DNA of 64,000 nucleotides, from NCBI RefSeq assembly GCF_018143015.1, contig NC_054748.1, positions 19,362,725 through 19,426,724 of the forward strand, written 5' to 3'. Of the stretch, positions 9,595 to 59,612 are shown piece after piece. Both the position numbers and the translations under genes were made by a program. Below the pieces are notes generated by a model. The model searched no databases. It was not told where the DNA came from and worked only from the letters and a program-made list of their open reading frames with translations. The stretch comes from Lytechinus variegatus (lineage: Eukaryota; Echinodermata; Echinoidea; Temnopleuroida; Toxopneustidae). The stretch's first letter is position 1. Each line of letters starts with the position of its first letter.

Positions 9595-9752
9595 GAATCA
9601 GGTGTATTTGTATTCGAGAAGAAACTCCTGGAAAGATTTGCCAAAAAGGATAGAGAACCATTGTTAGAGATCTTACGTAAGGGTTCAACCCAGTTGACCA
9701 GGCTAAGACATCCTTGTGTGCTTACGGTTCAACATCCATTGGAAGAAACAAG
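9595..9752 (+). CDS. SCYL2: SCYL2 exon 2, left arm
   Basis: 158 nt, ending in phase 2. It encodes the [11 protein letters not shown] region, where a normal kinase would have its VAIK lysine strand, and then [18 protein letters not shown], the alphaC region. The acceptor ATGGTAACAG and donor AG|GTTAGT are intact, unlike the right-arm copy. Confidence 0.9.
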
Positions 9753-10905: not shown

Positions 10906-11055
10906 TTAACAGATGCCTTGAAGTTTCTTCATAATGATATTCATATGGTCCATGGTAATATTTCACCGGCGAGTATTATCTTGAATGGTAATGGAGCCTG
11001 GAAGCTAGCTGGATTTGACTTTGTTATTCCTTCCTCATCACCACCTGATCAACCA
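10906..11055 (+). CDS. SCYL2: SCYL2 exon 4, left arm (pseudocatalytic loop)
   Basis: 150 nt, phase 0. It encodes LKFLHNDIHMVHGNISPASI, where HGN replaces the catalytic HRD, and LAGFDFVIPSSSPPDQP, where GFDF replaces DFG. Both are known SCYL2 pseudokinase features. The last ~27 nt plus the donor CCA|GTAAGT are the template of the tandem array that follows. Confidence 0.92.
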
Positions 11056-11455
11056 GTAAGTCACATGACTTTGTTTTCCCTTCCTCCTAACCACCTGATC
11101 AACCAGAAAGTCACCTGACTTTTTTTTATCCTTTCCTCTTCACCACCTGATCAACCAGTAAGTCATGTGACTTATTTGTCCACCTCATCACCACCTGATT
11201 AACCAGACATTGTTGTCTCTTCCTCTTCACCACCTGATCAATCACTAAGTCACATGACTTTGTGATCCTTTCCTCATCACCACCTGATCAACTAAGTCAC
11301 ATGACTTTGTTATCCCATTCATCATCACCACCTGATCAATTGATATAAAGTCACATGACTTTGTTAATCCTTCCTCATCACCACCTGATCAACCAGTAAT
11401 TCACATGACTTTGTTTTCCCTTCCTCATCACCACCTTATCAACCAGTAAGTCATA
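11056..11455 (+). repeat. Tandem array of the exon 4 end plus its splice donor
   Basis: About eight units of roughly 45-55 bp each contain TTCCTCATCACCACCTGATC followed by AACCAGTAAGTCACATGACT. The first half is the exon 4 3' end and the second half is the donor and first intron bases. Several units keep a usable-looking CAG|TAAGT or CCA|GTAAGT; others carry AGAAAGT or lose it. The right arm has about six units (31,080-31,375). Confidence 0.85.
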
Positions 11456-11585
11456 TGATGATGATGATGACAGTGATAATGATGAAGATGATGATGGAGC
11501 TGATGATGATGGTGATGGTGGTGATGATGATGATGATGAAGCTGATGGTGATGATGGTGGTGATGGTGATGAAGAGCATTTGTGA
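11452..11585. repeat. (GAT/GGT)n trinucleotide repeat, intron 4
   Basis: Interrupted ATG/GTG trinucleotide run directly following the exon 4 edge array. The right-arm equivalent is more than twice as long. Confidence 0.9.
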
Positions 11586-16191: not shown

Positions 16192-16319
16192 AACACATGA
16201 GTGAGTAAAAGCAATCTGACGAAATAAGTCAATGAAAATTTGAGAAAAAAATTTGATAAATAAGAATTTTGTGAGCATTTGAGATCACATTTGTTGTGAA
16301 AATCCTCCCATTTGACATT

Positions 16320-18532
16320 GCGACCAAGATGTGTGATGTTTAATACACGTCTACACCCCTCCCTCCCCCGCCTCATTATTTCTTTTATCCTCACTTTTAT
16401 CAAGTCATCCACATTCCATATTTTGGTGACTTTGGGGCCAAGACTCATTGTTTTAAAACTCATTGATTCAATCATTCTTTTGAATCCATCCTTAGTATCC
16501 ATATTTTAGTGACATTGTTGTAATCATTCTATTGGCATCCATACTCAGATTCCATGTGTTGATGACATCCATGTTTTGATGACAATGTGGCAATCATTCT
16601 ATTTGAAGTCATTCTTAGATTCCTTATTTTGATTACATTGTTGCAATCATTCTATTATAATCCATTCTTAGATTCCATATTTTGATTACATTGTTGCAAT
16701 CATTCTATTAGAATCCATTCTTAGATTACTTATTTTGATTACATTGTTGCAATCATTCTATTAGAATCCATTCTTAGATTCCATATTTTGATTACATTGT
16801 TGCAATCATTCAATTAGAATCCATTCTTAGATTACTTATTTTGATTACATTGTTGAAATCATTCTATTAGAATCCATTCTTAGATTCCATATTTTGATGA
16901 CATTGTTGCAATCATTCTATTAGAATCCATTCTTAGATTACTTATTTTGATTACATTGTTGCAATCATTCTATTAGAATCCATTCTTAGATTCCATATTT
17001 TGATTACATTGTTGCAATCATTCAATTAGAATCCATTCTTAAATTACTTATTTTGATTACATTGTTGCAATCATTCTATTAGAATCCATTCTTAGATTCC
17101 ATATTTTGATTACATGTTTGCAATCATTCAATTAGAATCCATTCTTAGATTACTTATTTTGATTACATTGTTGAAATCATTCTATTAGAATCCATTCTTA
17201 GATTCCATACTTTGATTACATTGTTGCAATCATTCTATTAGAATCCATTCTTAGATTACTTATTTTGATTACATTGTTGCAATCATTCTATTAGAATCCA
17301 TTCTTAGATTCCATATTTTGATTACATGTTTGCAATCATTCAATTAGAATCCATTCTTAAATTACTTATTTTGATTACATTGTTGCAATCATTCTATTTG
17401 AAGTCATTCTTAGATTACTCATTTTGATTACATTGTTGCAATCATTCTATTAGAATCCATTCTTAGATTCCATATTTTGATTACATTGTTGCAATCATTC
17501 AATTAGAATCCATTCTTAAATTACTTATTTTGATTACATTGTTGCAATCATTCTATTTGAAGTCATTCTTAGATTACTGATTTTGATTACATTGTTGCAA
17601 TCATTCTATTATTAAAATCCATTCTTAGATTCCATATTTTGATTACATCGTTGCAATCATTCTATTAGAATCCATTCTTAGATTACTTATTTTGATTGCA
17701 TTGCTGCAATCATTCTATTAGAATCCATTTGTAGATTCCATATTTTGATTACATGTTTGCAATCATTCAATTAGAATCCATTCTTAAATTACTTATTTTG
17801 ATTACATTGTTGCAATCATTCTATTAGAATCCATTCTTAGATTCCATATTTTGATTACATGTTTGCATTCATTCAATTAGAATCCATTCTTAAATTACTT
17901 CATTTGATTACATTGTTGCAATCATTCTATTTGAAGTCATTCTTAGATTACTGATTTTGATTACATTGTTGCAATCATTCTATTATTAAAATCCATTCTT
18001 AGATTCCATATTTTGATTACATCGTTGCAATCATTCTATTAGAATCCATTCTTAGATTACTTATTTTGATTGCATTGCTGCAATCATTCTATTAGAATCC
18101 ATTCTTAGATTCCATATTTTGATTACATGTTTGCAATCATTCATTTAGAATCCATTCTTAAATTACTTATTTTGATTACATTGTTGCAATCATTCTATTT
18201 GAAGACATTCTTAGATTCCATATTTTGATTACATTGTTGCAATCATTCTATTAGAATCCATTCTTAGATTCCATATTTTGATTACATTGTTGCAATCATT
18301 CTATTTGAAGTCATTCTTAGATTCCATATTTTGATTACAAGTTTGCAATCATTTTATTTGAATTCATTTTTAGATTCCATGTTCTGATAACATTGTTGAA
18401 ATCATTCTATTTGAAGACATTCTTAGATTGCATATTATGATTACAAGTTTGCAATCATTTTATTTGAATTCATTTTTAGATTCCATGTTCTGATGACATT
18501 GTTGAAATCATTCTATTTGAATTCATTCGTAG
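16320..18532 (+). repeat. 53 bp minisatellite copied from the exon 7 acceptor region
   Basis: About 38 clean units plus degenerate ones at the left edge. The unit is roughly 18 nt of intron end (ATTAGAATCCATTCTTAG) plus about 35 nt resembling the start of exon 7 (ATTCCATATTTTGATTACAT). Units alternate between ATTCCATATTTTG and ATTACTTATTTTG versions, giving a 106 bp higher-order period. Alignment to the first 35 nt of exon 7 gives 28 matches. The array ends exactly at the true acceptor at 18,532. The right arm has about half as many units. Confidence 0.88.
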
Positions 18533-18658
18533 ATTCCATATTTTGACGACGTTGGTGCCATGACTCTCCAGTACGTTGACTCATTGTTTCAACAAGAAAG
18601 CAAACAGAAAGCTCAATTCTTCAAAGGTCTTCCAAAAGTAATCTCAACTCTTCCCAAG
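18533..18658 (+). CDS. SCYL2: SCYL2 exon 7, left arm
   Basis: 126 nt, phase 0. It begins IPYFDDVGAMTLQYVDSLFQ and continues QKAQFFKGLPKV, matching human IPFFDDVGAVTLQYFDTLF, the entry to the HEAT-repeat-like region. Acceptor CATTCGTAG, donor AAG|GTAAGT. Its first ~35 nt are echoed in every unit of the upstream array. Confidence 0.92.
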
Positions 18659-19405: not shown

Positions 19406-19528
19406 ATTTTACTGATCTTCATGCAACGGATGACCCTTCTACTCACCAAGACGCCCTCTGATGACATCAAGAATCATGTTCTACCCATGGTGTATAGAGC
19501 TTTAGAATCGTCTTCAGCTCAGATACAG
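19406..19528 (+). CDS. SCYL2: SCYL2 exon 9, left arm
   Basis: 123 nt, phase 0. It encodes ILLIFMQRMTLLLTKTPSDD and NHVLPMVYRALESSSAQIQ, matching human ILLIFLQKMDLLLTKTP and NSVLPMVYRALEAPSIQIQ. The donor CAG|GTTAGC follows. The end of this exon and its donor recur five times in the next 900 bp. Confidence 0.92.
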
Positions 19529-19681: not shown

Positions 19682-20400
19682 TGTTTATGTTCATTCAACA
19701 TGTTTTGTAAATGTGATGTATGCACTTGCATGCACCATGGTCTATAGGGTTTTAGAATTTGTGTTCAGCTCAGATACAGGTTAGCAGGAACCTTTCTTAC
19801 AAAGAGTTGTTAGTTGATCCGATCAGAAACAACTATGGAAAGCTATATATCTTTAATGTTTATGTTCATTCAACATGTTTTCTAAATGTGATGTATGCAC
19901 TTGCATGCACCATGGTCTATAGGGTTTTAGAATCGTTTTCAGCACAGATACAGGTTATCACGGCCCTATCTTACAAAGATTTGTACCATGGACTATAAGG
20001 TTTTAGAATCGTCTTCAGCACAGATACAGGTTAGCAGGAACGTTTCTTACAAAGAATTGTACTTGATACAATCGACTATGGAAAGCTATATATATATATC
20101 TTTAATGTTATGTTAGCAGAAACCTTCCTTACAATGATTTGTACCATGGTCTATAGGGTTTTAGAATTCAAGTTCAGCTCAGATACAGGTTAGCAGGAAC
20201 CTTTCTTTCAAAGAGTTGTTAGTTGATCCGATCAGAAACAACTATGGAAAGCTATATTTATATCTTTAATGTTTATGTTCATTCAACATGTTTTCTAAAT
20301 GTGATGTATGCACTTGCATGCACCATGGTCTATAGGGTTTTAGAAATCGTCTTCAGCTCAGATACAGGTTATCACGGCCCTATCTTACAAAGATTTGTGA
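19529..20400 (+). repeat. Tandem copies of the exon 9 end plus donor
   Basis: Copies of TCTATAGGGTTTTAGAATCG, then TCAGATACAGGTTAGCAGGA, lie near 19,740, 19,915, 19,990, 20,150 and 20,328, each followed by the same downstream intron sequence (TTGTTAGTTGATCCGATCAG). Units range from about 75 to 180 bp. Two copies have GGTTATCACGG after ATACA in place of GGTTAGCAGG. The right arm has three extra copies (22,930-23,357). Confidence 0.85.
19600..19680. repeat. (TA)n microsatellite
   Basis: About 80 bp of nearly pure TA within the first unit of the exon 9 edge array; other units have only short TATATA here, so it expanded in one unit. Confidence 0.95.
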
Positions 20401-20654: not shown

Positions 20655-20745
20655 CTTTATATCTTATATTGACTGTTTATCTATTGACTTTATATCTTAT
20701 ATTGACTGTTTATCTATTGACTTTATATCTAAAATTGACTGTTTC
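20655..20745 (+). repeat. 33 bp tandem repeat at the exon 10 acceptor
   Basis: Unit CTTTATATCTTATATTGACT followed by GTTTATCTATTGA, about three copies, the last running into the polypyrimidine tract and acceptor CTTTCTGTAG. The right arm has four copies (22,540-22,670). Confidence 0.9.
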
Positions 20746-22539: not shown

Positions 22540-22670
22540 GAAAGAAACAGTCAATTTTAGATATAAAGTCAATAGATAAACAGTCAATATAAGATATAAA
22601 GTCAATAGATAAACAGTCAATATAAGATATAAAGTCAATAGATAAACAGTCAATATAAGATATAAAGAGC
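22540..22670 (-). repeat. 33 bp repeat at exon 10 acceptor, right arm (four units)
   Basis: Same unit as at 20,655-20,745 with one additional copy, showing array-length change between arms. Confidence 0.9.
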
Positions 22671-22929
22671 AAATTGCCATCTTGGAGTAATAAACCAATT
22701 CCATGAAATACATGTATGTTGGCACATAAAATGAAAACAGATTTTCTCAAAACAATCAATATGATTTTTATTTCTTGGGGGGACAAGGGTTGTTTCAACA
22801 TTTCTAAAGAAAATGGATGGTGCAAGAGTATACGTTGTATTAATTAAACATATTGAATGGACTTATACGTTCTAAATAATGGCATTACATGGCCTATCAT
22901 AGTTGTGATTACTAGGATCAATCACAAAT

Positions 22930-23357
22930 CTTTGTAAGAAAGGTTCCTGCTAACCTGTATCTGAGCTGAACTTGAATTCTAAAACCCTATAGACCATGGT
23001 ACAAATCATTGTAAGAAAGGTTCCTGCTAACATAACATTAAAGATATATATATAGCTTTCCATAGTCGATTGTATCAACTACAATTCTTTGTAAGAAAGG
23101 TTCCTGCTAACCTGTATCTGTGCTGAAGACGATTCTAAAACCTTATAGTCCATGGTACAAATCTTTGTAAGATAGGGCCGTGATAACCTGTATCTGTGCT
23201 GAAGACGATTCTAAAACCCTATAGACCATGGTGCATGCAAGTGCATACATCACATTTAGAAAACATGTTGAATGAACATAAACATTAAAGATGTATATAG
23301 CTTTCCATAGTTGATCGGATCAACTAACAACTCTTTGTAAGAAAGGTTCCTGCTAAC
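22930..23357 (-). repeat. Exon 9 edge array, right arm (three extra copies)
   Basis: Copies of the exon 9 end and donor lie near 22,960, 23,120 and 23,195, in addition to the true exon edge at 23,358. The (TA)n expansion of the left arm is absent. Confidence 0.85.
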
Positions 23358-23480
23358 CTGTATCTGAGCTGAAGACGATTCTAAAGCCCTATAGACCATG
23401 GGTAGAACATGATTCTTGATGTCATCAGAGGGCGTCTTGGTGAGTAGAAGGGTCATCCGTTGCATGAAGATCAGTAAAAT
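23358..23480 (-). CDS. SCYL2: SCYL2 exon 9, right arm
   Basis: 123 nt, same protein sequence as the left copy apart from silent changes (TATAGGGCT against TATAGAGCT). Acceptor CTTTTAAG and donor CAG|GTTAGC are kept. Confidence 0.92.
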
Positions 23481-23803: not shown

Positions 23804-23959
23804 TGTATAAGAAAGGATTATTTACATCTGGGGGCGACCATTAAAGATCAGTAAAATCTTAAAAAAGAAACATCCAAAGAGGTACATTAGGAGAAGGTTT
23901 CAAAACTGTATGCATTCGAGTTCTAGCAGACATGGACCAATCAGATTATTTACATCTGG

Positions 23960-24347: not shown

Positions 24348-24524
24348 CTGAACAGGTTCTTGCATCTTGAAGACATTCTTTAGGCTCGGTAAGACCAGCT
24401 TCACATACTCCTGATCGGTGCATTGTTCGGCGATGAGGAGTACATTGGGTAAGACAAACGGCACCATGTCAGGATTCATGAACTCCTTACACAAGCATGG
24501 TAGTATTCTCTGCTGAACAACCCT
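24348..24524 (-). CDS. SCYL2: SCYL2 exon 8 (present only in the right arm)
   Basis: 177 nt, phase 0, 59 codons, with acceptor ATTCCTAG and donor CAG|GTAAGG. It encodes RVVQQRILPCLCKEF and NPDMVPFVLPNVLLIAE, followed by EYVKLVLPSLKNVFKMQEPV. This matches human RVIVQRILPCL and FVNPDMVPFVLPNVLLIAEE at the same place between exons 7 and 9. Searching 18,659-19,405 in the left arm shows no equivalent. Confidence 0.93.
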
Positions 24525-26558: not shown

Positions 26559-26684
26559 CTTGGGAAGAGTTGAGATTACTTTTGGAAGACCTTTGAAGAA
26601 TTGAGCTTTCTGTTTGCTTTCTTGTTGAAACAATGAGTCAACGTACTGGAGAGTCATGGCACCAACGTCGTCAAAATATGGAAT
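26559..26684 (-). CDS. SCYL2: SCYL2 exon 7, right arm
   Basis: 126 nt, mirror of 18,533-18,658 with acceptor CATTCGTAG and donor AAG|GTAAGT. Confidence 0.92.
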
Positions 26685-27850
26685 CTACGAATGAATTCAA
26701 ATAGAATGATTTCAACAATGTCATCAGAACTAAAAATTAATTCAAATAAAATGATTGCAAACTTGTAATCAAAACATGGAATCTAAGAATGACTTCAAAT
26801 AGAATGATTTCAACAATGTCATCAGAACATGGAATCTAAAAATTAATTCAAATAAAATGATTGCAAACTTGTAATCAAAATATGGAATCTAAGAATGACT
26901 TCAAATAGAATGATTTCAACAATGTCATCAGAACATGGAATCTAAGAATGGATTCTAATTGAATGATTGCAACAATGTAATCAAAATATGGAATCTAAGA
27001 ATGGATTCTAATAGAATGATTGCAGCAATGCAATCAAAATAAGTAATCTAAGAATGGATTCTAATAGAATGATTGCAACAATGTAATCAAAATATGGAAT
27101 CTAAGAATGGATTTTAATAATAGAATGATTGCAACAATGTAATCAAAATAAGTAATTTAAGAATGGATTCTAATTGAATGATTGCAAACATGTAATCAAA
27201 ATATGGAATCTAAGAATGGATTCTAATAGAATGATTGCAACAATGTAATCAAAATATGGAATCTAAGAATGGATTCTAATAGAATGATTGCAACAATGTA
27301 ATCAAAATAAGTAATTTAAGAATGGATTCTAATTGAATGATTGCAACAATGTAATCAAAATATGGAATCTAAGAATGGATTATAATAGAATGATTGCAAC
27401 AATGTAATCAAAATAAGTAATCTAAGAATGGATTCTAATTGAATGATTGCAACAATGTAATCAAAATATGGAATCTAAGAATGGATTCTAATAGAATGAT
27501 TGCAACAATGTAATCAAAATATGGAATCTAAGAATGGATTCTAATAGAATGATTTCAACAATGTAATCAAAATAAGTAATCTAAGAATGGATTCTAATTG
27601 AATGATTGCAACAATGTAATCAAAATATGGAATCTAAGAATGGATTCTAATAGAATGATTGCAACAATGTAATCAAAATAAGGAATCTAAGAATGACTTC
27701 AAATAGAATGATTGCCACATTGTCATCAAAACATGGATGTCATCAACACATGGAATCTGAGTATGGATGCCAATAGAATGATTACAACAAAGTCACTAAA
27801 ATATGGATACTAAGGATGGATTCAAAAGAATGATTCTGGATACTAAGGAT
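26685..27850 (-). repeat. 53 bp exon 7 acceptor minisatellite, right arm
   Basis: Same unit and alternation as 16,320-18,532 but only about 20 units. The units nearest the exon (about 26,690-26,960) are the TTTGAA/GATGAC variants that are closest to true exon sequence. Confidence 0.88.
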
Positions 27851-28297
27851 GGATTCAAAAGAATGATTGAATCAATGAGTTTTAAAACAATGAGTCTTGG
27901 CCCCAAAGTCACCAAAATATGGAATGTGGATGACTTGATAAAAGTGAGGATTAAAGAAATAATGAGGCGGGGGAGGGGGGGTGTAGACGTGTATTAAACA
28001 TCACACATCTTGGTCGCAATGTCAAATGGGAGGATTTTCACAACAAATGTGATCTCAAATGCTCAAAAAATTCTTATTTATCAAATTTTTTTCTCAAATT
28101 TTCATTGACTTATTTCGTCAGATTGCTTTTACTCACTCATGTGTTAATGGGGGATCATGAGTTATACCATGCCAAAGAGATTCTAAGCTTCACAATAATA
28201 GTTCATTTTTCTATTTTATTTGTGATTAAGTTTATATGATAAAGGATCGATAATCCTCAGTTTCATTTTTAGTGGGGGCGCACTTTCCTTCTCTTAC

Positions 28298-30925: not shown

Positions 30926-31078
30926 CAGCTTCATCATCATCATCACCATCATCATCACCATCATCATCAGCTTCATCATCATCATCACCATCATCATCAG
31001 CATCACCATCATCATCAGCTTCATCATCATCATCATCATCAGCTTTATCATCATCACCATCATCATCAGCTTCATCAT
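30755..31078. repeat. (CAT)n repeat, intron 4, right arm
   Basis: About 320 bp of CATCAT/CACCAT with regular CAGCTT interruptions, over twice the left-arm length. Confidence 0.92.
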
Positions 31079-31079
31079 A

Positions 31080-31375
31080 TGACTTACTGGTTGATCAGGT
31101 GGTGATGAGGAAGGGAAAACAAAGTCATGTGACTTACTGGTTGATCAGGTGGTGATGAGGAAGTGATAACAAAGTCATGTGACTTAGTGACTGATCAGGT
31201 GGTGAAGAGGAAGAGACAACAATGTCTGGTTAATCAGGTGGTGATGAGGTGGACAAATAAGTCACATGATTTACTGGTTGATCAGGTGGTGAAGAGGAAA
31301 GGATAAAAAAAGTCAGGTAACTTTCTGGTTGATCAGGTGGTTAGGAGGAAGGGAAAACAAAGTCATGTGACTTAC
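31080..31375 (-). repeat. Exon 4 edge array, right arm
   Basis: About six units containing the complement of CACCTGATCAACCAGTAAGT, adjoining the true exon end at 31,376. Unit order and variants parallel those in the left arm, with two fewer units. Confidence 0.85.
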
Positions 31376-34895: not shown

Positions 34896-35995
34896 CACAT
34901 AATGATATTCCCCAATACATTACAATACACTCTCTATTGATTAAAATATTATGTACAAAGCAAATTAAGTATTAAATGTATCTTACATATCAAAGACGAG
35001 TAAATTGAAAATGAACTGAACTTAAGTCCTAAATCCAGAAACTCGGAAAGAGCTGGTTGCACTTATAACATCATGAAGATGATTTTAAGGGCATAAGAGT
35101 TTTTCAAGTCGTTTCAAAGTACCACACTGAATGTATTCGACGTCTATTTCTGTTTATCTATTTTAAATAAGCATATTTGACCCCTTTGTATATAAAATAT
35201 CTTCTTAGATATAGACTCAAAATAAAAAAACCCACGAAAAATAAGACTTCTAAACTTCTAACCGCTATATAAGACGTGTATTTTGGCCTCCAATGAAAGT
35301 TTGTTGACCTTTTGACCTTTCCCTGACCTTGTCTTGACCCTTTATATCTTCTGGATAAGGACTTCTGACGATGGACTTATCAAAATCGAGAATAAAAAAG
35401 TACACACATGCATAAAAACACGGAAAAAATGAGCTTTCTTAACACCTTCAGTGTAATTTGCCATTGAACGAAAGTTCATTGACCTTTGACATTTCCGGTC
35501 ATAACTTTTTAACGGGAGGTCAAGAGTATATGATTGTGTACACTTTTTTGTTCAGTATAACAAGACAAACAATTTGATGTGTCATTTGACAGAATTGGGG
35601 CAATTTAAAAAATTGACCCCTATTGACATCATTTTGACCCCTAACATGGTCAAGATGACCATTAGAAATTTGTCACCAAGTTGGAAGTTGTTCCTTGTGA
35701 TGTCACCAATCACATAAAAGTGAAAAATCAGACTTAGCCAATTTGTCGAGGTAAATGACATATGCTGCCTGACTAATTACTGTCATGCATGAAAAAAGTT
35801 GTGCAGAATTTAAAGAGCTTCATGAAGCTTTATAAAATACCACCCTGCATGCTGACATCAATCCCTCCCCCTTGAACTTTGTAGTTTATTTACCGGTATG
35901 TTTCATCCCCATTGGACTCCATGAAAGATGAAACCATGTGTGAAAAAGGCTACCCTGATTTTTGGATGAACAAAAAATGAAATCAAAGAAAAAAA

Positions 35996-36176
35996 TGGAT
36001 GGATGGATAGGTGGATGGGTGGAAAGATGGATGAATGGATGGATGACTGGATGGATGACTGGATGGATGGATGGATGGATGATGGATGGATGACTGGATG
36101 GATGACTGGATGGATGACTGGATGGTTGGATGACTGGATGGATGGATGGATGGATGGACGGACAGATGGATGGATG
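35996..36176. repeat. (GGAT)n microsatellite fused to SCYL2 exon 2
   Basis: About 180 bp of ATGG/GACTGG tetranucleotides. On the - strand it starts directly after CAACATCCAT of exon 2, where the left arm continues TGGAAGAAACAAG and the donor. Confidence 0.93.
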
Positions 36177-40400: not shown

Positions 40401-40429
40401 TAGCCTTATAAAGACGAGATAGCAAATAA

Positions 40430-42165
40430 TATGTTCCTCCTTCTCCCTATAAACGCACCTGATTAGGGCATTCTCGCAATCATTTCACAGACGCTTTCTA
40501 TAACACAGACAATCTTTTGACAATAGCTCTTTATAATAAAACAGTCTTTGTCGAAAATTGGTGAATCAAATCAACAGTGTCGTCCTGGACTCTGACTAGG
40601 CAAACGACACATTGGTTATATTTCATCCGGTCCAAGTCTTAAGACGATGTAGGCGTACTGTCACGGTCCACCAACTTTCGACAATGACCTCCAGTCTGTC
40701 CCTTGTAATTTGACAGGCATTTTTAATAGATTCCCAATGTTCCAGAAAGCGTTTCCTCCTTTCCATATTTATCTATTGAAAAATCTCCATCCTTCTTTCC
40801 TTCATTCCTTTCTTCCTCCCTTTATTTCTTTATATATGCCTTTCTTTCCTTCTATCTTTCTCCCTTTTTTGTTCTCTTTTTTTCTGAACAAGTCAATACT
40901 ATACCAGTGACATACAGATTACTACTTTTTACAACTTTTATTGATTAATCAAGTATATACAAAAAAATTGTCTTCTCGTCATCAAAGTATTTTGTTTCAT
41001 TAAATCGCTAAAAGAAAAAAACAATAACAGTAATAATATCAGCCTAATTACAGCAAATATGAATTATGATATTCTGTTATTATTATATTATTACTCTTTT
41101 ACAGATTTTGAAATTGCATTTCCTTCATTCACTTTCCAACGTTTACATTGTAATGTTTGGTTTCGTACATTTTAAGAAATTTTCTAAAAGTTATTATGTA
41201 TATTATGATCAAATTGATGATCAAATCTTTTATAGTTCCTGAAAATGAAGAGCATAATTGATTTTACCTTTTAATAAACTCATTCCACTTGTAAGCTTGA
41301 CATATCGTATTGTAGAACTGTATCATTGTGTATAGTGTGAATTTGGTTCTTAAATACTTACATGTTATTATATTTGTACATTTGCACATCATTGTTCTCG
41401 ATCATATTTGTGCAAATAAATTCACAGTGATCATACTTTCCTTCTCAATTGTATAATTAATTAATGACGTTTTCTCTTCATTCTGGATATACTGCATGAT
41501 TCTTGATGAAAGAGAATTTCTGCTAAAATAAGTATACCTGTAGACAATACAATTAATTATGATATTACAGTTTCATTACAGTTTTTTCCAAGGTAATAGC
41601 AAGTCATATCTGAAATCCGAAGTAGAAATTTGAAATTATATTATTGAATGATTTTCCAAACTTAGATAGAATGTAACAATTTGATTGAGTTATACATGTA
41701 TTGTTCTTTCCTTAAGATTTTTACGACCACGGGGAAAAGAAGAAAATGAATGAAGCTAAAAGGCTGAACATATCATTGTCTGAATATTATGTCGAGACCT
41801 ATCACAAAATTAGATGTTTGCACTGTTTTGCTAGCTCCCGGCTTTTTAGGAATTTTGTCCCCTCGAAAATTTTATTTTCGCTCCATTTGATTTTGTTTAT
41901 TTTTACAAAGATATAATATATGCAAAACAATATATAAATATAGATTTAATATAGTTACGGACCAATGAAAAGTTCTTCAGACTTCTATGGATGGCAAATA
42001 TCGACATCCATTGACTCATTACAACTGCGCTTTTACTGTACATTTCGTGCCATTGCCTGAAATACAATAAGCTATCCTCCATGTTCTCCGTAAAGCTATT
42101 CAATTTCACATTCGAGTTATTCCATATAATTGCTTTTTCAAATTAAATTTTTTCGAATATATTAA
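40430..42165. other. AT-rich non-coding part of the duplicated block, copy 1
   Basis: No gene recognised. It has a pyrimidine-rich TTCCTTC stretch at 40,780-40,880 and otherwise unique-looking AT-rich DNA shared with 53,245-55,120. Confidence 0.5.
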
Positions 42166-42903
42166 GAGTTTAGTTGCAAAAGGGTTAGGTCCACTTTTTA
42201 CCATTCCGAGAAAAAACCATGTTGTTTATTCTCACTTACTGCAATACTCTCATGAGAAACTAAATTGTCTTGATACTACCCCATCATGTGAACATAAAAC
42301 TGGTTATAAAAGAAATCTACCTGTCTTCAATTTTTTTCTATATATTCGAATCCAATCTATTTTGATTAAAAAGGAGATTTATTTTTGCCACTTTTCTTCG
42401 CGTTTTCAAGTGAATTTTAAATTTTCGTTGTTTTCAACAGAACGACTAAAAATTTAGAGGATTTGTGACAGAAAACAATAAAAATTTATGAACGATGGAC
42501 CTAACCCCTTTTGACAAATGAGCTCTTCAGAAGAGTTTGTTTGCAAAAGGGGTTAGGTCCACGCCAAAAAAAAAATATTTTTTATTCTCCCATATTGCAA
42601 TATTCTAATGCGAAACTAAATGTTTGTGATACCCTATCATGAGAACATAAAATTGGGTATAAAAGAAATCCACCTGTCTTCATATTCTTTTTAAAACAAA
42701 TTATGTTTGGACCTATAATCCCTTCTGCAACTAAATTGAATTGGACCTAACCCATTTTGAAAAAAAGTGATTTTTCTTTGCCATTTTAGCTCACTTTTTA
42801 ATGGGAATTTCAACTTTTCTTTCAAAAAATCTATAAATTGAGACCAAAAAATCAAATTTGTGGAAAATGGACCTAACCCCTTTCGCAAGTGAGCTCTTCA
42901 TAT
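42166..42903. mobile_element. Two tandem copies of a ~365 bp MITE (copy 1 only)
   Basis: Each unit has inverted ends of the form GAAGAG..TTTGCAAAAGGGG followed by TTAGGTCCA, with the complement TGGACCTAACCCC at the other end. Unit 1 is about 42,166-42,530 and unit 2 about 42,532-42,903; they meet as GAGCTCTTCAGAAGAGTTTG. The interiors are homologous (ATAAAAGAAATCNACCTGTC). Copy 2 has neither (about 55,100-55,130). Confidence 0.82.
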
Positions 42904-43189
42904 CGAAGTAGTGTACTTCACATCGGATCTATATCAAATACAGGTTAAAAAATACACAGTATAAGCATGTTCCATAACGGAGAACGTTGTTTTTATCATA
43001 AGCATCATGATTTTGCTTCATATCTGCGTGATCAATGCATAAAATATACATTACAAGTACACATAAATAGTATAGCATACCATCTTTAAAATGAATGGTA
43101 AATATTACACTTCCACCATGGTTATTACTAGTTAAATATGAAGTATATGTTTATGAATAGAAAATTATTTGATTTCTCATGATATATCT

Positions 43190-44420
43190 AATGACATTAT
43201 GTCTAAAATACAAGAACTAGAAATTTCCCCACACAGGATAAACATGATGAAGATGATGCTTGATAATAGCAAAGTTCCAAATAAAAATTGAGATCCATTG
43301 ACGTTGCTTTTTATGCATTTTATGCTATTTTCTTAAATGCCGGCAATATTTGTTTGTTTTGTTTCACATTCAAGTTATCATATATAATTGCATTTTGAAA
43401 TTGAAGCACTTCAAAAAAATATGAAAGAGCAGGAATCAGACCAATTACATGAAGATGATATTTATATATTTACACAGTGTAATCATTTCTAGATAGAATA
43501 ATAGCATAGAATAACGACATATTACAATTTATGCATAAAATCATAAACAGTATAGCATACACTCATTAATATCAATGGTAAATATCACATTGCCACGATA
43601 GTCATTGCTAGACAAATATTATATACATGCATATGACATGTATGAAGAGAGAAACATTTGGTTTCCCATAAAATACGTGTTTCAAGTTGTAGTTGGGTTG
43701 TTAAATGGTTTTACTTAACTCGAACATCAAAGAGTAGTTAGAGATTTCTTACAGGTAGAAAGGGGTACTTTAGTACTTAGCAAGAGTGCGCCCTCTAAGT
43801 GAATAAACATTATAGGTTATCAAAAGTTGAACAAATCACATAAACAGGATACTGTTAAAATATATATTTAACATTATGTCTTATATTTAAATTCCCTCAC
43901 ATAGGATACACATGATAAAGATGATGCTGGATAAGTAGAAAGCTGAAAATAAAAATTGTGATTCATTGACCATATGCTGTTTTGTACATTTTTCGTGCAA
44001 TTTTCATAAATGAAATAAGTTTTTTTTCAAGTATTTAACACTCCGAAAAATATCAAAGAGTGATGATTGTGAAGATAATGAAGTGAAGATTGTGAAGTGA
44101 AGATAATATTCATATATTCACACGTTATAATAATGTCTTGATTCACAGCATAGATATCTTTCAATTCATGAAAACATACAAGTATACGCGCATAAACAGT
44201 AAACTCTTTTGATCTCTTTGATCTCACCACCCTTGTTGGCATTATTAGTCAAATATTATATACGGTCATGAATATGAATAGAGAATCATATGGTTTGTCA
44301 TAAAATATTTAATAACAATTTGTCTGATATGCAAGTACTAGAATTTCCCCACACAGAGGATAAACATGATTAAGATGATGCTTGATAAATGCAAAGCTGG
44401 AAATAAAAAAGATGTAAGCA
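43190..44420. repeat. Three diverged tandem units downstream of TRIM, copy 1
   Basis: Three versions of a ~450-660 bp unit, each with TTCCCCACACAGGATAAACA or a close variant, followed by GATGAAGATGATGCTTGATA, near 43,225, 43,895 and 44,345. The same three are in copy 2 (55,425-56,560), so the triplication is older than the block duplication. Function unknown; they lie just 3' of the TRIM stop. Confidence 0.7.
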
Positions 44421-44673
44421 GCGAAATGTTGTTTTTATGGGTGAGAAACGAGAAAGAAATGATCCAACAATTGTTTTATGTATTTCAACATTATAGCAGC
44501 TTACTTTAGCAGAAAATGGCAACTCGGTGGGTATCACCCCCCCCCCATCTTCTGCGATAATAATTATGATATCATGTCATCAATTATTTTCAGCGGAATA
44601 TATAGAGTCTATCCGAAGTGCAGAAAGCGATCTCTCCTGATCGGTACTGCTGGAGGTAATACCAATCTATCCA

Positions 44674-46491
44674 TCACTTCTCAATCTTGTAATCATTAAC
44701 AAGGTTTCGAATGTGTCTTAGTTCATTTGTATACTCGTCAATGCTCACCAAACCTTCATCATGCTTCACCTTGGCTATCAGGATTGTATTCCATTGAGAT
44801 ACAGCAGCGTAAAGGAGACTACCCGGTTTCTTTAATTCATGTTGTACAGCACCCTGTTTGTCTATCAATCTGATAGCACCCAATGATGAAATGATCAGAG
44901 AACCATGGTAACTAGTGATTTGATATGGTACATACCCGTTGCATGGTATCTCCCTGACTGCTTGCCCACCTGCTGTTGAAAATACCTGGATCTTCTTGGC
45001 TTTCCAGTAGCTCACATAGATCAGATCATCAGCATCAACAGTGAGATCAGAATTCCCACCTTCATCTCGACTTAGAGTCTTAAACATTACATTCAATTGT
45101 GTGTACTCTGGTGTGTACAGTGTAATGTTGTTTGAAGTATCAATCACAACACATCGACCATCAGAAAGAAACCCTACCCCCGATATTTTAACATCCTTCA
45201 GAACTGTCTGCTGAAGCTGACCATCAGTGGAGAAGATTTTCATGCCACCTCTATAACATCCTACTGCCATCCTACCGTCTGGTGTACTAACCATGGCATT
45301 CATGATATCTTGAGCTGGCAAAGCAACCTTCTTTACATTATCAATGTTATAAGTAGGCAAAGAAACGTCCTTTTCATTAAATGTTTTATTAGTGGGTAAG
45401 GCGACGTTTCTTTCAACCACATTCACAATCTTTCCAAGGCCTAGCTCATCCACTCCAACATTTCTCTTGAACCTGACACTTTTCCCCTTTATGCCCGATT
45501 TCTTCGGCTGCTCGTAGTCAGGATCCTTTTGATCAATGACCTCTCGTAACTCTTCACACAGAGTGTCGTGTGCAGCCAAAGTATCCATATCTAATGGAAT
45601 CTTTATTTTGTTAGTTACCATTTCAGCCATGGTCGCCAACCGATTGATGTGCTTCTGGGCCGTGGTCTTCATACTTTCCAGTTCTTTCTTTACTCCTTCG
45701 GTCGTTTCCTTGACTTCTCTTACTAGACTTTCCCTCTTTACTGTCAACTGCCGGACTGCATCATCATATGCTTGATTGATGTCACTTGTACACTGTTTCT
45801 TGGCACTGTCAACACTTTTAGTCTGTTCATCTATAAAATCAATGTACTTCTGAAAGCATGATTGTTTCTTGTCCACCTTTGATTTAAGTTCTTCCATACC
45901 CTTCGTGTGTTTGTCCTCGTAAGCTGTTCCCTCGATGACCTTGTGTCCTTCCCCCGTATGTTCCATAACAACACACCTGAAGCATGTGAATCTCCTGCAG
46001 CTGGAACAGAAGCAACCCTCGTCTTCTTTTGGATGTTTCCTGCATTTCCGGTATTTACGGACTGAAACCTTCCCTGATGAGATCTCACTCATGGCAATGA
46101 CTTCATGATCGATAAAGCTCTTCCATTGAGAGTGCGTATTAAGACAAGAGGTGCAGAGATAGTTGCCACAGTCTTGGCAGTAGACAGCAGCATGGGATTT
46201 GTCATTTGATTTACAATTTGTGCACATCTGAGGATGGCCCTCCATATCCTCTATCAGACTCTTCAAAGCAAGATTTACCTGTAGTTTGCCGACATCTTGG
46301 TTTGGGACCTGGGTCACAGCTCTGCAGACAGGGCATCGGATCTGGCAGTTACCGTGACACTCTAAGAGGTTGTCCAGGCAAGTCTTGCAGAAAGTGTGAG
46401 AACAAGACAGGATCTTGGGATCGGTGAAGGTAGAAAGACACACTGGACACTCTGTACTCTGGGAGATGACAGTTTTTAATGCTTCAGCCAT
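44674..46491 (-). CDS. TRIM E3 ubiquitin ligase-like protein, copy 1
   Basis: 605 residues in one exon. RING C3HC4 finger at residues 15-56 (C15, C18, C30, H32, C35, C38, C53, C56), which in this family binds ubiquitin-charged E2. B-box 1 about 90-129, B-box 2 about 150-183 (C150, H153, C162, C165, C170, C173, H178, H183), coiled coil about 195-320, then a C-terminal propeller-like region (TPDGRMAVGC, GVGFLSDGRCVV, DLIYVSYWKAKKIQVF) like that of TRIM2/3-type proteins. The start MAEALK fits the family, and a splice acceptor (ATTATTTTTCAG) lies 21 nt upstream, implying a 5' UTR intron. Relative to copy 2 a TGA after KIEK removes the last 28 residues. No paralogue name can be fixed. Confidence 0.88.
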   Translation of the reverse strand: MAEALKTVISQSTECPVCLSTFTDPKILSCSHTFCKTCLDNLLECHGNCQIRCPVCRAVTQVPNQDVGKLQVNLALKSLIEDMEGHPQMCTNCKSNDKSHAAVYCQDCGNYLCTSCLNTHSQWKSFIDHEVIAMSEISSGKVSVRKYRKCRKHPKEDEGCFCSSCRRFTCFRCVVMEHTGEGHKVIEGTAYEDKHTKGMEELKSKVDKKQSCFQKYIDFIDEQTKSVDSAKKQCTSDINQAYDDAVRQLTVKRESLVREVKETTEGVKKELESMKTTAQKHINRLATMAEMVTNKIKIPLDMDTLAAHDTLCEELREVIDQKDPDYEQPKKSGIKGKSVRFKRNVGVDELGLGKIVNVVERNVALPTNKTFNEKDVSLPTYNIDNVKKVALPAQDIMNAMVSTPDGRMAVGCYRGGMKIFSTDGQLQQTVLKDVKISGVGFLSDGRCVVIDTSNNITLYTPEYTQLNVMFKTLSRDEGGNSDLTVDADDLIYVSYWKAKKIQVFSTAGGQAVREIPCNGYVPYQITSYHGSLIISSLGAIRLIDKQGAVQHELKKPGSLLYAAVSQWNTILIAKVKHDEGLVSIDEYTNELRHIRNLVNDYKIEK

Positions 46492-46609
46492 GGTTGGGTT
46501 TATAGAAGACTGAAAAATAATGATTACAAAACAAGATGAAGAATAATAAACACGTAAGGACCGTAGAATCTGCCATTTGACTTACATCACTGAGTAATAA
46601 AAGGATCGC

Positions 46610-46770
46610 GTTGGGTTTTGGAATAGGGAAAGGAAGGGGAGGAGCAAGGGGAAATTGGGAATGATAAAATGAGGGGGAGAGGAGAAAGGGGGATGGAAAG
46701 AGGAGCTTGGTACGATGGGAATAAATTGGGATGGTGAAAGGAAAGGAGTGAAAAGAAGAGTATTAGGAAT
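46610..46770. other. Purine-rich (GGGGA/GGAAAG) stretch upstream of TRIM, copy 1
   Basis: A G/A-rich segment on the + strand, also at 58,770-58,920. It lies in the presumed 5' UTR intron or promoter region; no defined site is recognised. Confidence 0.5.
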
Positions 46771-46804
46771 CATATTGCTTTAAAAAGAGTATGATTTTTA
46801 TAAG

Positions 46805-47125
46805 TTTATTTCCAATTAGTCTAATGCCATTTCGTCCAATTACCAAACTCCTTTACTATCATTTGGTCTAACATAAGCTAATCCACTATCCACATGGTCT
46901 AATTGCAATTTCTTTCACTCACCAGTTTATATAATAACCAGTTGGGCTAATAGCAATTAAGTCTGAAATCTAGTCTAACTGGACTTAGTGTTAATTGGAC
47001 AAAATAAATTAAAATGAAATGGATATTTATTTAGACCAACTGGTTATGAGACGAAATGGTAATAGACGAACTGGTGATTAGACGAAGTGATGATTGGACC
47101 AAATGGTTTTTAGACGAAATGTTTT
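46805..47125. repeat. Array of degenerate ~16 bp AGACGAAATGGT motifs, copy 1
   Basis: The right half reads AGACCAACTGGTTATG, AGACGAAATGGTAAT, AGACGAACTGGTGATT, AGACGAAGTGATGATT, GGACCAAATGGTTTTT. The left half carries the reverse complement forms (AGTCTAATGCCATTTCGTCC). So two opposed motif arrays flank a short centre. A few motifs recur past the LINE at 49,060-49,140. Confidence 0.75.
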
Positions 47126-47320
47126 TTTTCTTAAGTTTTTATTGGGTTTTCATAATTTTGTATAACAAATCACATATAATTAATACGAGTAATTTAAAAT
47201 ATAACAGAATAAACAAATAAGAAAAGAAAAACAGGCAGCATACACATTATTAGTTTACATTAGAAGAAGTACAGCTTATCAACAGATAATACAATTAACC
47301 ATGATATCCTATTAGTAAAG

Positions 47321-48367
47321 TTGTCACACTATGGTGTTAGAGGGAAAGCCTTGGAATGGTTCAGGAATTATTTATCGAATAGAAAACAATTTGTACAAAT
47401 AGATAATCACAGTTCTGCATTGCGACCAATAAATTGTGGAGTTCCACAGGGTAGTATACTAGGTCCCTTGTTATTTATAATATACATAAATGACTTTTAT
47501 AAATCTTCAGATGTTCTATCTTTCATTTTATTTGCAGACGATTCGACCTTATTTTATTCCCATGCGAACCAAAACACACTATTGTCTACTATAAATCGTG
47601 AACTGAGACATGTAGTTGAATGGGTTAAAGCAAACAAATTATCCCTTAACATCCTGAAGACAAACTTTATGTTATTTAGTAACACTTTGCAAAATCTACT
47701 TGGAGACATCCTTTTGGACGATACTGCTCTAAATAGGGTCTCTTCAACTAAAGTTTTAGGTCTCATGATTGACGATAAATTGAAATGGAACATTCATATT
47801 CAAAATATATCCAAAACTATATCAAGGAACATTGGTATAATGAATAAAATAAGACACTTTTTTCCAAAATCAACACTTTTTACACTATATTCCTCCCTAA
47901 TACTTCCCTATCTGAATTATGGAATAATGACATGGGGTAACGCCAACAAATATCTTACAGACAAAATTCTCATCTTACAAAAGAACATTATAAGAATTAT
48001 ACACAATGCTCCTCCTCGTTCTCATACTAACAATTTATTTTACAAGTCCAATATTTTGAAACTTCCAGATCTATTTCTTTTTCAAACAGGGCAATTTATG
48101 TACAAATTGAATTCAAACGAACTCCCAAACATATTAATTAACATGTTTACAAAAAATAACGCCATTCACAATTACCCAACAAGACAATCACTCCGTTTTC
48201 ACCTTCCCCGTACCCGCACTCAACTCGCACAAAAAACAATTTCCTTTTATGGTCCTAAATACTGGAATACACTCAGTCACGACATCATCAACTCCGTTAG
48301 TCTGAACTGTTTTAAAATCAAGCTAAAAAAGCACATTCTCGAATCTTATAGAGTAAGTCCAAATTGA
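47321..48367 (+). CDS. LINE reverse transcriptase C-terminal part
   Basis: 348 residues open from a TTG codon; the frame is open further upstream to about 47,276. Motifs: GVPQGSILGPLLF (residues 40-52), the catalytic FADD (71-74), SLNILKTNFMLF, LGLMIDDKLKWNIHI, then the downstream connection LPYLNYGIMTWGN and the terminal FYGPKYWNTL typical of CR1/L2/Jockey-like elements. The uninterrupted frame over 1 kb suggests a recent insertion. The exact clade is uncertain. Confidence 0.88.
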   Translation: MSHYGVRGKALEWFRNYLSNRKQFVQIDNHSSALRPINCGVPQGSILGPLLFIIYINDFYKSSDVLSFILFADDSTLFYSHANQNTLLSTINRELRHVVEWVKANKLSLNILKTNFMLFSNTLQNLLGDILLDDTALNRVSSTKVLGLMIDDKLKWNIHIQNISKTISRNIGIMNKIRHFFPKSTLFTLYSSLILPYLNYGIMTWGNANKYLTDKILILQKNIIRIIHNAPPRSHTNNLFYKSNILKLPDLFLFQTGQFMYKLNSNELPNILINMFTKNNAIHNYPTRQSLRFHLPRTRTQLAQKTISFYGPKYWNTLSHDIINSVSLNCFKIKLKKHILESYRVSPN

Positions 48368-53244: not shown

Positions 53245-53664
53245 AGAAATCAAATAATAATATGTTCCTCCTTCTCCCTGGCGAACATGATTGGGGCATT
53301 CTCACAATCATTTCACAGACGCTTTCTATAACACAGAGAATCTTTTGACCATAGCTCTTCATAACAAACAGCCTTTGTCGAAAATTGGTGAATCAAATCA
53401 ACAGTGTCGTCTTGGATTCTGACTAGGCAAACGACACATTAGTTATATTTCATCCGGTCCGAGTCTTAAGACGATGTAGGCCTACTGTCACGGTCCACCA
53501 ACTTTCGACAATGACCTCTAGTCTGTCCTTTGTAATTTGACAGGCATTTTTAATAGATTCCCAATGTTCCAGAAAGGGTTTCCTCCTTTCCATATTTATC
53601 TATTGAAAAATCTCAATCTTTCTTTCCTTCATTCCTTTCTTCTTCCCTTTATTTCTTTATATAT

Positions 53665-53893
53665 GCCTTTCTTTCCTTCTATCTTTCTCCCTTTTTTGTT
53701 CTATTCTTTTTTCTGAACAAGTCAATACTATACCAGTGACATACAGATTACTATTTTTTTAAACTTTTATTGATTAATCAACTATAATAAAAGTTTAAAA
53801 AAAATAGTAATCTGTATGTCACTGGTATAGTATTGACTTGTTCAGAAAAAAGAATAGAACAAAAAAGGGAGAAAGATAGAAGGAAAGAAAGGC
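53665..53893. repeat. 107 bp near-perfect inverted duplication (copy 2 only)
   Basis: Left arm 53,665-53,771, right arm 53,786-53,893, 14 nt spacer; the only arm difference I see is a one-base change in an A/T run. In copy 1 the left arm is present once (about 40,835-40,945) and the following sequence is different, so about 110 bp was copied in reverse here. Confidence 0.92.
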
Positions 53894-53899
53894 AAATAT

Positions 53900-55380
53900 A
53901 CGAATGATATTTTGTTTCATTAAATCGCTTAAAGAAACAAAAACAATAACAGTAATAATATCAGCCAAATTACAGCAAATATAAATTATGATATTCTGTT
54001 ATTATTATATTACTACTCTTTTACAGATTTTGAAATTGCATTTCATTTATTCACTTTAAAACGTTTACATTGTAATGTTTGGTTTCGTACATTTTAAGAA
54101 AATTTCTAAAAGTTATTATGTATATTATGATCAAATTGATGATCAAATCTTTTATAGTTCCTGAAAATGAAGAACATAATTGATTTTACTTTTTAATAAA
54201 CTCATTCTACTTGTAAACTCGACATATCGTATTGTATAGAGCTGTATACTGTGAACTTGGTTCTTAAATACTGACATGTTATTATATTTATACATTTGCA
54301 CATCATTGTTCTCGATCATACTTGTGCAAATATAAACAGTTGCATTCACAGTGCTCATACTTTCCTTCTCAATTGTATAATTAATTAATGACGTTTTCTC
54401 TTCATTCTGGATATAGTGCATGATTCTTGATGAAAGAGAATTTTTGCTAAAATATGTTTACCCGTAGACAATCCAATTACTTATGATATTACAGTTTCAT
54501 TTTTTTTCCACGGTAATAGCAAGTCATATCTGACGTGATCTTCTATCGAATTGAATCATTTTTAAAAGGCGAAATCCGAAGCAGAAATTTGAAATTATAT
54601 TATTGAATAATTATCCAAACTTAGAAAGAATGTAACAATTTGATTGAGTTATACATGTATTGTTCTTTCCTCAAGATTTTTACGACCACGGGGAAAAGAA
54701 GAAAAGTAAATGAAACTAAAAGGCTAAACATATCATTGTCTGAATATTATGTCGAAATCTATCACAAAATTAGATGTTTGCACTGTTTCGCTCGCTCCCG
54801 GCTTTTAGGAATTTTGCCCCCTCAAAAATTTTCATTTTGCTCCATTTGATTTCGTTTATTTTTTTACAAAGTTATAATATATGCAAAACAATATATAAAT
54901 ATAGATTTGATATAGTGATGGACCAATGAAAAGTTCTTCAGACTTCTATGGATGGCAAATATCGACATCCATTGTCTCATAAAAACTGCAGTTTTACTTT
55001 ACATTTCGTGCCATTGCCTGAAATACAATAACCTATTCTCCGTAAAGCTATTCTATTTCACATTCGAGTTATTCCATATAATTGCATTTTCAAATTAACT
55101 TTATTCGAATACATCAAAGAAGTGTACATCACATCGGTTCTATATCAAATACAGGTTAAAAAAATACACAGTATAAGCATGTTCTATAACGGAGAACGTT
55201 GTTTTTATCATAAGGATCATGATTTTGCTTCATATCTGCGTGATCAATGCATACAATATGCATTACAAGTAAATAGTACAGCATACCGTCTTTAAAATGA
55301 ATGGTAAATATTACACTTCCACCATGGTTATTACTAGTTAAATATGAAGTATATGTTTATGAATAGAGAATTATTTGATT
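53900..55380. other. AT-rich non-coding part of block copy 2
   Basis: Parallel to 40,985-43,190 without the MITE dimer. No gene recognised. Confidence 0.5.
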
Positions 55381-56565
55381 TCTCATGATATATCTAATAA
55401 CATTATGTCTAAAATACAAGAACTATAAATTTCCCCACACAGGATAAACATAATGAAGATGATGCTCGATGATAGCAAAGTTCAAAATGAAAATTGAAAT
55501 CCATTGACGTTGCTTTTTATGCATTTTCGTGCTATTTTCTTAAATGCCGGCAATAATTGTTTGTTTTGTTTCACATTCAAGTAATCATATACAATCGCAT
55601 TTTGAAATCGAAATACTTCGGAAAATATCAAAGAGCGTACATCAGACCATTTCCATGAAGATATTTATATAACTACACAGTGTAATCATGCCTTGATAGA
55701 ATAATAGCATAGAATAACAACATATTACAATTTATGCATAAAATCATATACAGTATACACTCATTAATATCAATGGTAAATATCACATTGCCACGATAGT
55801 CATTGCTAGACAAATATTATATACATGACATGTATGAAGAGAGAAACATTTGGTTTCCCATAAAATATGTGTTTCAAGTTGTGGTTGGGTTGTTAAATGG
55901 TTTCACTTGACTCGAACATCAGAGGCAGAAAGGGGTACTTTATTACTTAGCAAGAGTGCGCCCTCTAAGTGAATAAACATTATAGGTTATCAAAAGTTGA
56001 ACAAATCACATAAACAGGATACTGTTACAATATATATTTAACATTATGTCTTATATTTAAATTCCCTCACATAGGATACACATGATAAAGATGATGCTTG
56101 ATATTAAGTAGAAAGCTGAAAATAAAAATTGAGATTCATTGACCATATGCTGTTTTATACATTTTTCGTGAAATTTTCATAAATGAAATAAGTTTTTTTT
56201 TCAAGTTTTTAAAACTCCGAAAAATATCAAAGAGTGATGGTCAGACCATCTCCACGAAGATAATATTTATATATTCACACGTTATAATAATGTCTTGATT
56301 CACAGCATAGACATCTTTCAATTTATGAAAACATACAAGTATACGCGCATAGACTAATATCAATGATGAAGATCTCACCACCCATGTTGGCATTATTAGT
56401 CAAATATTATATACGGTCATGAATATGAATAGAGAATCATATGGTTTGTCATAAAATATTTAATAACAATTTGTCTGATATGCAAGTATTAGAATTTCCC
56501 CCACACGGAGGATAAACATGATTAAGATGATGCTTGATAAATGCAAAGCTGGAAATAAAAAAGAT
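55380..56565. repeat. Three diverged tandem units downstream of TRIM, copy 2
   Basis: Counterpart of 43,190-44,420, with cores near 55,430, 56,060 and 56,500. Confidence 0.7.
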
Positions 56566-56741
56566 GTAAGGAGCGAAATGTTTTTATATGGGTGAGAAAC
56601 GAGAAAGAAATGATCCAACAATTGTTTTATGTACTTTTACATTATAGCAGCTTACTTTAGCAGAAAATGTCAACTCAGTGGATATCACCCCCCCCCCCAT
56701 CTTCTGCGATAATAATTATGATATCATGTCATCAATTATTT

Positions 56742-58647: not shown

Positions 58648-58974
58648 GGTTGGGTTATAGAAGACTGAAAAATGATTATTACAAAACAAGATGAAGAATA
58701 ATAAACACGTAAGGGACCGTAGAATCTGCCATTTGACTTACATCACTGAGTAATAAAAGGATCACGTTGGGTTTTTGAATAGGGAAAGGAAGGGGAGGAG
58801 CAAGGGGAAATTGGGAATGATAAAATGAGGGGGGACAGGAGAAAGGGGAATGGAAAGAGGAGCTTGGTACGATGGGAATAAATTGGGAAGGTGAAAGGAA
58901 AGGAGTGAAAAGAAAAGAAGATTATTAGGAATTATATTGCTTTAAAAAGAGTATTATTTTTATAAGTTTATTTC

Positions 58975-59612
58975 CAATTAGTCTAATGCCATTTCGTCCA
59001 ATTACCAAACTCCTTTACTATCATTTGGTCTAACATAAGCTAATCCACTATCCACATCGTCTAATTGCAATTTCTTTCACTCACCAGTTTATATATAACG
59101 AGTTGGGCTAACAGCAATTAAGTCTGAAATCTAGTTTAACTGGACTTAGTGTTAATTGGACAAAATAAATTAAAATGAAATGGATATTTATTTAGACCAA
59201 CTGGTTATGAGACGAAATGGTAATGGACGAACTGGTGATTAGACGAAGTGATGAGTGGACCAAATGGTTTTTAGACAAAATGTTTTTTTTTTCTTAAGTT
59301 TTTATTGGGTTTTCATAATTTTGTATAACAATTCACTTATAATTCATACGAGTAATTTAAAATATAACAGAATAAACAAATAAGAAAAGAAAAACAAGCA
59401 GCTTACACAATATTAGTTTACACTAGAAGAAGTACAGCTTACATGTATAAATAATAATAATAATTCCATCTTATTAAGCGCTTTTTCTAAAGTAACAAAA
59501 AACAAGCCATATCAATAAGATAATAATTGATAAACATGTAGTAAAAAAGTCATTTTGTCTAAAAACCGTTTGGTCCAATCATCACTTCGTCTAATCACCA
59601 GTTCGTGTATCG
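58975..59612. repeat. AGACGAAATGGT motif array with inverted partner, copy 2
   Basis: 58,975-59,285 matches the copy 1 array. 59,556-59,612 is the reverse complement of 59,225-59,281 (GTCTAAAAACCGTTTGGTCC), so a ~57 bp inverted repeat encloses about 270 bp. This looks like an element with motif-array ends. Confidence 0.75.

Follow-up and report, generated by a model that had tools for sequence, protein, structure and literature searches.

How does an intron come to contain dozens of near-copies of the splice site at which it ends? The question is raised by a minisatellite in a 64,000-nucleotide window of the sea urchin Lytechinus variegatus (contig NC_054748.1, C9:19362725-19426724 in our genome search), which runs directly into a coding exon of a gene that we take to be SCYL2. 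The encoded protein has a protein kinase domain (Pfam PF00069). The name is putative and goes further than this domain: among the best 60 of 470 rows of the search of solved structures there were general kinases only (best E 1.7e-7), and the NCBIfam matches were bacterial kinases below the cut-off. The exon numbers are working labels; that of exon 7, like the gene name, is presumed and comes from no database result. No exons were found upstream of the one at 9595. The array is very probably a tandem duplication of the intron–exon junction that expanded into a minisatellite, a type known as "mirage" in amphioxus; it would belong to a set of tolerated local duplications whose decoy splice sites probably have no function.

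The gene is present twice in the window: positions 2-39480 form an imperfect inverted duplication, with the gene on the plus strand in arm A (to ~21100) and on the minus strand in arm B (from ~22176). In arm A, the acceptor array occupies positions 16413 to 18532 of the plus strand, and exon 7, the source of its unit, follows at 18533 to 18658 (plus strand). The array therefore ends at the genuine acceptor, as the initial annotation had stated. The start of the feature had been placed at 16320, which is too early: the exon-like sequence begins at 16413. Exon 7 is 126 nt long, has the open frame IPYFDDVGAMTLQY, encodes IPYFDDVGAMTLQYVDSLFQQESKQKAQFFKGLPKVISTLPK and is flanked by a genuine acceptor and a genuine donor, CATTCGTAG on its 5' side and GTAAGT on its 3' side. 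Each 53-bp unit consists of sequence that resembles the exon start and of an intron end. Tandem Repeats Finder reports a period of 53, 37.2 copies and 87% matches, and wrap-around alignment resolves 37 regular units between 16565 and 18480, with about three divergent ones at the 5' edge.

The consensus unit matches the first 35 nt of exon 7 at 28 of 35 positions in an ungapped alignment. The score of 35 is equalled by none of 1000 dinucleotide shuffles, whose maximum is 24, which agrees with the claim that the units align better to exon 7 than shuffled sequence does. The period and the 28/35 match are also as first described, but the exon-derived part, which had been given as ~35 nt, may be only 26 nt long, which would split the unit 26/27, because positions 1-26 match the exon at 22 of 26 and positions 27-35 at only 6 of 9. 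The units were compared by their base states and pairwise differences: the edges of the array diverge from the middle units, and no identical block of four or more units recurs in the acceptor array, which shows a dimer pattern instead (the fewest differences are found at a lag of two units).

The 5'-most copy of arm A (16413-16456, plus strand) bears on which partner is the older. Positions 16413-16446 match exon 7 at 29 of 34 positions. Seven sites separate exon 7 from the central consensus, and this copy has the exon base at five of them (16, 23, 27, 30 and 32), compared to none or one in the regular units; the central units are low at these sites because the sites are defined by the difference between exon and consensus. 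In plain identity to the exon, the best regular unit is nearly as close (29/35). The 5'-most copy is followed by GACTCATTGTTTtAA, which matches exon 7 beyond the unit; this stretch was picked after inspection, and 2 of 1000 shuffles equal it. A control stretch (16200-16400) shows no match to exon 7, with 151 of 300 shuffles as good. Because both exon states and deeper exon sequence persist in the 5'-most copy, the direction of copying from exon to array gains support, and with it the earlier proposal that the exon is the older partner and seeded the array. The pattern at the 5' edge fits a scenario in which a copy of exon 7 was the founder and the middle of the array grew later.

The same gene holds two further arrays of this type, both at donors, which the initial annotation had overlooked. 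The donor of exon 5 in arm A (10906-11055, plus strand; CCA/GTAAGT) seeds a 50-bp array at 11067-11458 on the same strand. Its eight extra copies consist of ~39 nt of exon end and ~11 nt of intron start, match the real junction at 42/49 to 50/52 positions, and keep an intact GT in three of eight cases. They differ from their source in 11% of the cells of the exon part, 27% of those of the intron part and 44% of those of the GT. The corresponding array of arm B (31076-31363, minus strand) has six extra copies, three with an intact GT. The third array is seeded by the donor of exon 9 (19406-19528, plus strand; CAG/GTTAGC). In arm A it lies at 19735-20398 (plus strand) and comprises five full extra copies, which match the real junction at 64/75 to 70/74 positions, and one donor-only piece; its units hold ~44 nt of exon end and at least 30 nt of intron. 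In arm B (22924-23231, minus strand) there are three full extra copies and a degenerate one. Exon 9 also has an extra acceptor in arm B (23844-23870, minus strand), made of a pyrimidine tract, AAG and 14 nt of exon, with a best match of 37/41 over a slightly longer stretch; the two other copies of the gene described below have it too, and arm A does not.

Three features of amphioxus mirages are found here: the unit spans an exon–intron boundary, acceptors and donors are both concerned (one acceptor array and two donor arrays), and the splice dinucleotides are kept in many units but not in all (AG in 49/57 regular units of the acceptor arrays, GT in 3/8 copies of exon 5). When 16 junctions of arm A were tested for a local direct repeat, three scored 83-111 and the other 13 at most 30. 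Among 16 junctions of arm B, in a test that left out exon 6b, which is present, three scored 78-112, the donor of exon 3 scored 51 (a microsatellite), the acceptor of exon 9 scored 50, and 11 scored at most 28. No match of the array sequences was found in the window outside the arrays.

Two further observations concern exon 9 and its neighbour. Within exon 9 the arms differ at only two sites, both synonymous and both in the stretch that the array copies (19481-19528 and 23358-23405); there arm B agrees with the majority of array units (4/5 full copies in A, 2/3 in B), which may be a trace of conversion between array and exon. A 33-bp repeat whose unit contains no exon sequence lies just before the acceptor of exon 10 (20655-20744 in arm A, 2.7 copies; 22545-22667 in arm B, 3.7 copies).

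The gene is not confined to the two arms. The genome searched comprises 869,567,369 bases in 33 contigs; the array queries were the acceptor array and the exon 5 regions, and the search scores only the best candidates. A 581-base query from the acceptor array region gave 19 matches, all on C9 and at four places (the two arms, ~19.45 and 19.815 Mb), and the four matches of the exon 5 region fell on these gene copies as well. These lie within ~450 kb of each other. All nine exons that were sought are present, at 97-100% identity, in the two copies outside the window, C and D. The sequence of exon 7 does not vary among the four copies; that of arm B (26559-26684, minus strand) is identical to that of arm A over 126 nt. 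The number of units, on the contrary, differs among copies A, B, C and D: 39, 23, 19 and 19 unit ends for exon 7, 8, 6, 6 and 6 extra copies for exon 5, 6, 4, 3 and 1 extra donor copies for exon 9, and 0, 1, 1 and 1 extra acceptor copies for exon 9. The acceptor array of arm B (26685-27925, minus strand) consists of 20 regular units, the final one truncated, and divergent 5' units. The corresponding stretch of C and D must also contain other sequence, since its ~1.8 kb hold only 19 unit ends.

The collinear blocks of arms A and B are mostly 93-98% alike, and some are 85-90% alike. The exons differ less (2/145, 1/150, 2/216, 0/126, 2/123 and 0/114). Each arm lacks a piece of coding sequence. 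Arm A has no 177-nt exon 8 between 18659 and 19405, the gap being at an ATG microsatellite, while the exon is present in B (24348-24524), C and D. In arm B, the end of exon 3 and its donor are replaced by a CATC microsatellite which starts at the CATCCAT of the exon (35995-36176); this exon is intact in arm A (9595-9752).

About 38 decoy 3' splice sites had been counted before the real one. Arm A indeed has 39 unit ends, the final one being the real acceptor, but only 32 of the other 38 carry AG; six carry AA. A second AG is found ~15 nt upstream in 24 of the 37 regular units of arm A, as counted from the alignment rows. Over both arms, the 57 regular units end in AG in 49 cases, two real acceptors included, and in AA in eight. 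If used, all 32 AG-preceded unit starts tested in arm A (one of which, 16443, is probably an artefact of the cut) would lead to a stop codon, and 12 of the 32 would be in frame by length; the decoy donors tested in this arm would also meet a stop codon in 8/8 cases. The final 53 nt before exon 7 of arm A contain no AG except that of the real acceptor, an arrangement that should favour the true site according to the established rules of splicing. B, C and D end in a shorter unit, with the preceding AG ~47 nt upstream of the real acceptor. Exon 7 is presumably spliced correctly. Judged from their sequence, the decoys look free of visible constraint, and selection that would keep them is not supported; they probably have no function.

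Kinase loci elsewhere in the genome were sampled for the same arrangement. The search listed 130 kinase matches, from which 50 short ones were chosen before any sequence was seen, leaving out near-duplicate places, and 30 were examined. Three of the 30 loci have copies of a junction in the adjoining intron, arranged as in the SCYL2 gene but in low number. Two extra copies accompany the donor of L046 (88/99 with a score of 128 and 65/77 with a score of 75, compared to 49 for the best of 300 shuffles), and two that of L019 (71/84 with a score of 112 and 67/79 with a score of 86, compared to 39); the latter concern another exon of the sampled region and were picked up from the repeat list. At the acceptor of L042, one extra copy is clear (55/68, with a score of 72 compared to 43 for the best shuffle), a second looks older (50/73, with a score of 54), and two others do not exceed the shuffle level. 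As aligned, the donor copies of L046 and L019 lack GT in 4/4 cases. Five of the 30 loci (L042, L046, L022, L030 and L044) show a local copy on the matched exon or no more than 40 nt from it, but L022 was rejected as a junction copy since it is a low-complexity stretch, and so were L030 and L044, which are intronic repeats beside the exon. The small sample suggests that junction arrays are not rare in this genome.

Two side observations come from the same loci. The repeat of L044 (L044:3186-3392) is a 25-bp intronic array of 8.5 copies which starts 12 bases past the kinase match, and no exon sequence was seen in its unit. Several kinase matches form pairs of identical or nearly identical score, megabases apart on one contig (e.g., C2:24555716 and C2:31725483). 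Such pairs may represent either retained haplotypes or segmental duplications.

How could the arrays have arisen? We propose that a segment made of the intron end and the initial 26-35 nt of the exon was duplicated into the intron. The coding copy would then have been held fixed by selection on the protein, while the intron-side copies multiplied, probably by unequal exchange, slippage being the other candidate mechanism. The same would have happened at two donors of the gene, with the copies downstream of the exon. Local duplications are common in the genome, and those that cross a junction would be tolerated because one intact junction always remains beside the exon. Several observations weigh against this account. 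The A of the decoy AG is invariant in 57 units and all copies of exon 9 keep GT (6/6 in arm A), neither of which is required of a decaying array, although many other columns are invariant too. Among nine real donors, the three with the weakest U1 pairing (exon 5, -5.6; exon 3, -6.7; exon 9, -7.1 kcal/mol) include both donors that bear arrays, with a chance of 3/36; a link between donor strength and arrays is suggestive at best. Finally, the units are as alike between the arms (5.61 differences per unit) as within them (5.66 and 5.75), so that arm-specific homogenisation is not seen.

The weak donors, the GT kept in exon 9 and the stop codon that every decoy tested would yield are also what would be expected if the decoys were selected, either as redundancy or as a poison-exon control in which stop codons regulate the amount of mRNA. 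Such a role is unlikely. The G of the acceptor is lost in 14% of the 57 units, compared to a mean minor-base fraction of 6.7% across the other 51 columns. In arm A, GT is lost in 5/8 copies of exon 5, a loss reached by only 5/49 neighbouring column pairs, that pair included. Copy number varies among the gene copies, both decoy copies of L046 are without donor GT as aligned, and no unusual hairpin was found in the six junction stretches folded as RNA (z from -0.56 to 1.06). It is far less probable still that a dispersed satellite was inserted by chance at the edge of the exon. The central units do resemble each other more than the exon, and a distant relative could escape a search that scores only the best candidates. 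The acceptor and exon 5 arrays are nevertheless unlike a dispersed satellite because their genome matches are confined to the four gene copies, as the initial annotation had anticipated for the acceptor array; in addition, two further arrays match other exons, and exon 7 is identical in the four copies.

Exon–intron junctions could also be hot spots at which tandem duplications start. Three of the five local repeat runs in the gene span a junction (P = 0.0017 to 0.0042 under random placement), junction copies occur in 3/30 sampled loci, and mirages recur in several amphioxus genes (PMC3087553, PMC3902484). However, the gene was selected for its oddity, and in the 30 loci a local copy was found for 4/264 exon tiles compared to 198/4701 flank tiles, six loci giving 166 of the 198; the flank repeats form 27 clusters in ~151 kb. 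Exon tiles are not enriched, therefore no hot spot at junctions is needed, and we hold it to be improbable. An assembly artefact may come to mind as well, since the window is palindromic and each arm is without a different exon piece, beside a microsatellite. This is very hard to reconcile with three arrays that recur, with differing unit numbers, in four gene copies on a 38.5-Mb contig, and with two gene copies which have all nine exons looked for. The growth of duplicated junctions thus remains our preferred explanation.

The rest of the window contains a direct duplication (40425-47278 and 53256-59441, 92% over the longest block). Its first copy has a RING/B-box (TRIM-like) frame on the minus strand; its second copy, judged from the reading frames, has a similar one split in two. 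A reverse transcriptase frame is found at 47264-48367.

The kind of array described here is already known. Mirage minisatellites are reported in amphioxus for Adh3, the globins BflGb6 and BflGb9, TnC and PGBD5 (PMC3087553, PMC3902484); the second paper adds PGBD5 and cites TnC. Either boundary may be involved, splicing is apparently undisturbed, and haplotypes of BflGb6 carry six or three mirage units (PMC3087553). Mirage units are also described as homogenised inside a cluster but not at its edges, and Adh3 as unstable in length in somatic tissue. As in amphioxus, many but not all of the urchin units keep AG or GT, and the unit number differs between copies. Unlike the amphioxus cases, there are up to ~40 units, three arrays in one gene and four gene copies; the unit number varies by haplotype in amphioxus and among four gene copies here, some of which may be haplotypes. 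In potato, a two-copy duplication of a boundary made an intron (PMC4974935, where the model of Rogers is cited). There too the duplication crosses the intron–exon boundary and carries the acceptor along, but it made two copies and a new intron, whereas here the copies are many and neither a new exon nor a new intron is apparent. The CeRep25B minisatellite of C. elegans also lies in introns near splice decisions and is linked to alternative splicing (PMC4039745). Unlike the SCYL2 arrays, it is a repeat family with many loci, and the available part of the paper does not describe it as a copy of the adjoining exon. No report of mirages outside cephalochordates was seen among the open-access papers listed. 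The urchin gene thus extends the known kind in size, in number and probably in taxon.

It is conceivable, although we advance it tentatively, that mirages are general in this genome and not a peculiarity of amphioxus, about one kinase locus in ten having copies of its own junctions, which would make up a standing supply of splice sites for intron sliding, gain or regulation. Where arrays of splice signals flank a working exon, the choice that the spliceosome makes among nearly equal sites is put to a natural test, and such arrays have been proposed as raw material for intron gain (PMC3087553). If they are common outside cephalochordates, questions of splice choice and intron gain could be answered by counts made in genomes and RNA data that already exist.
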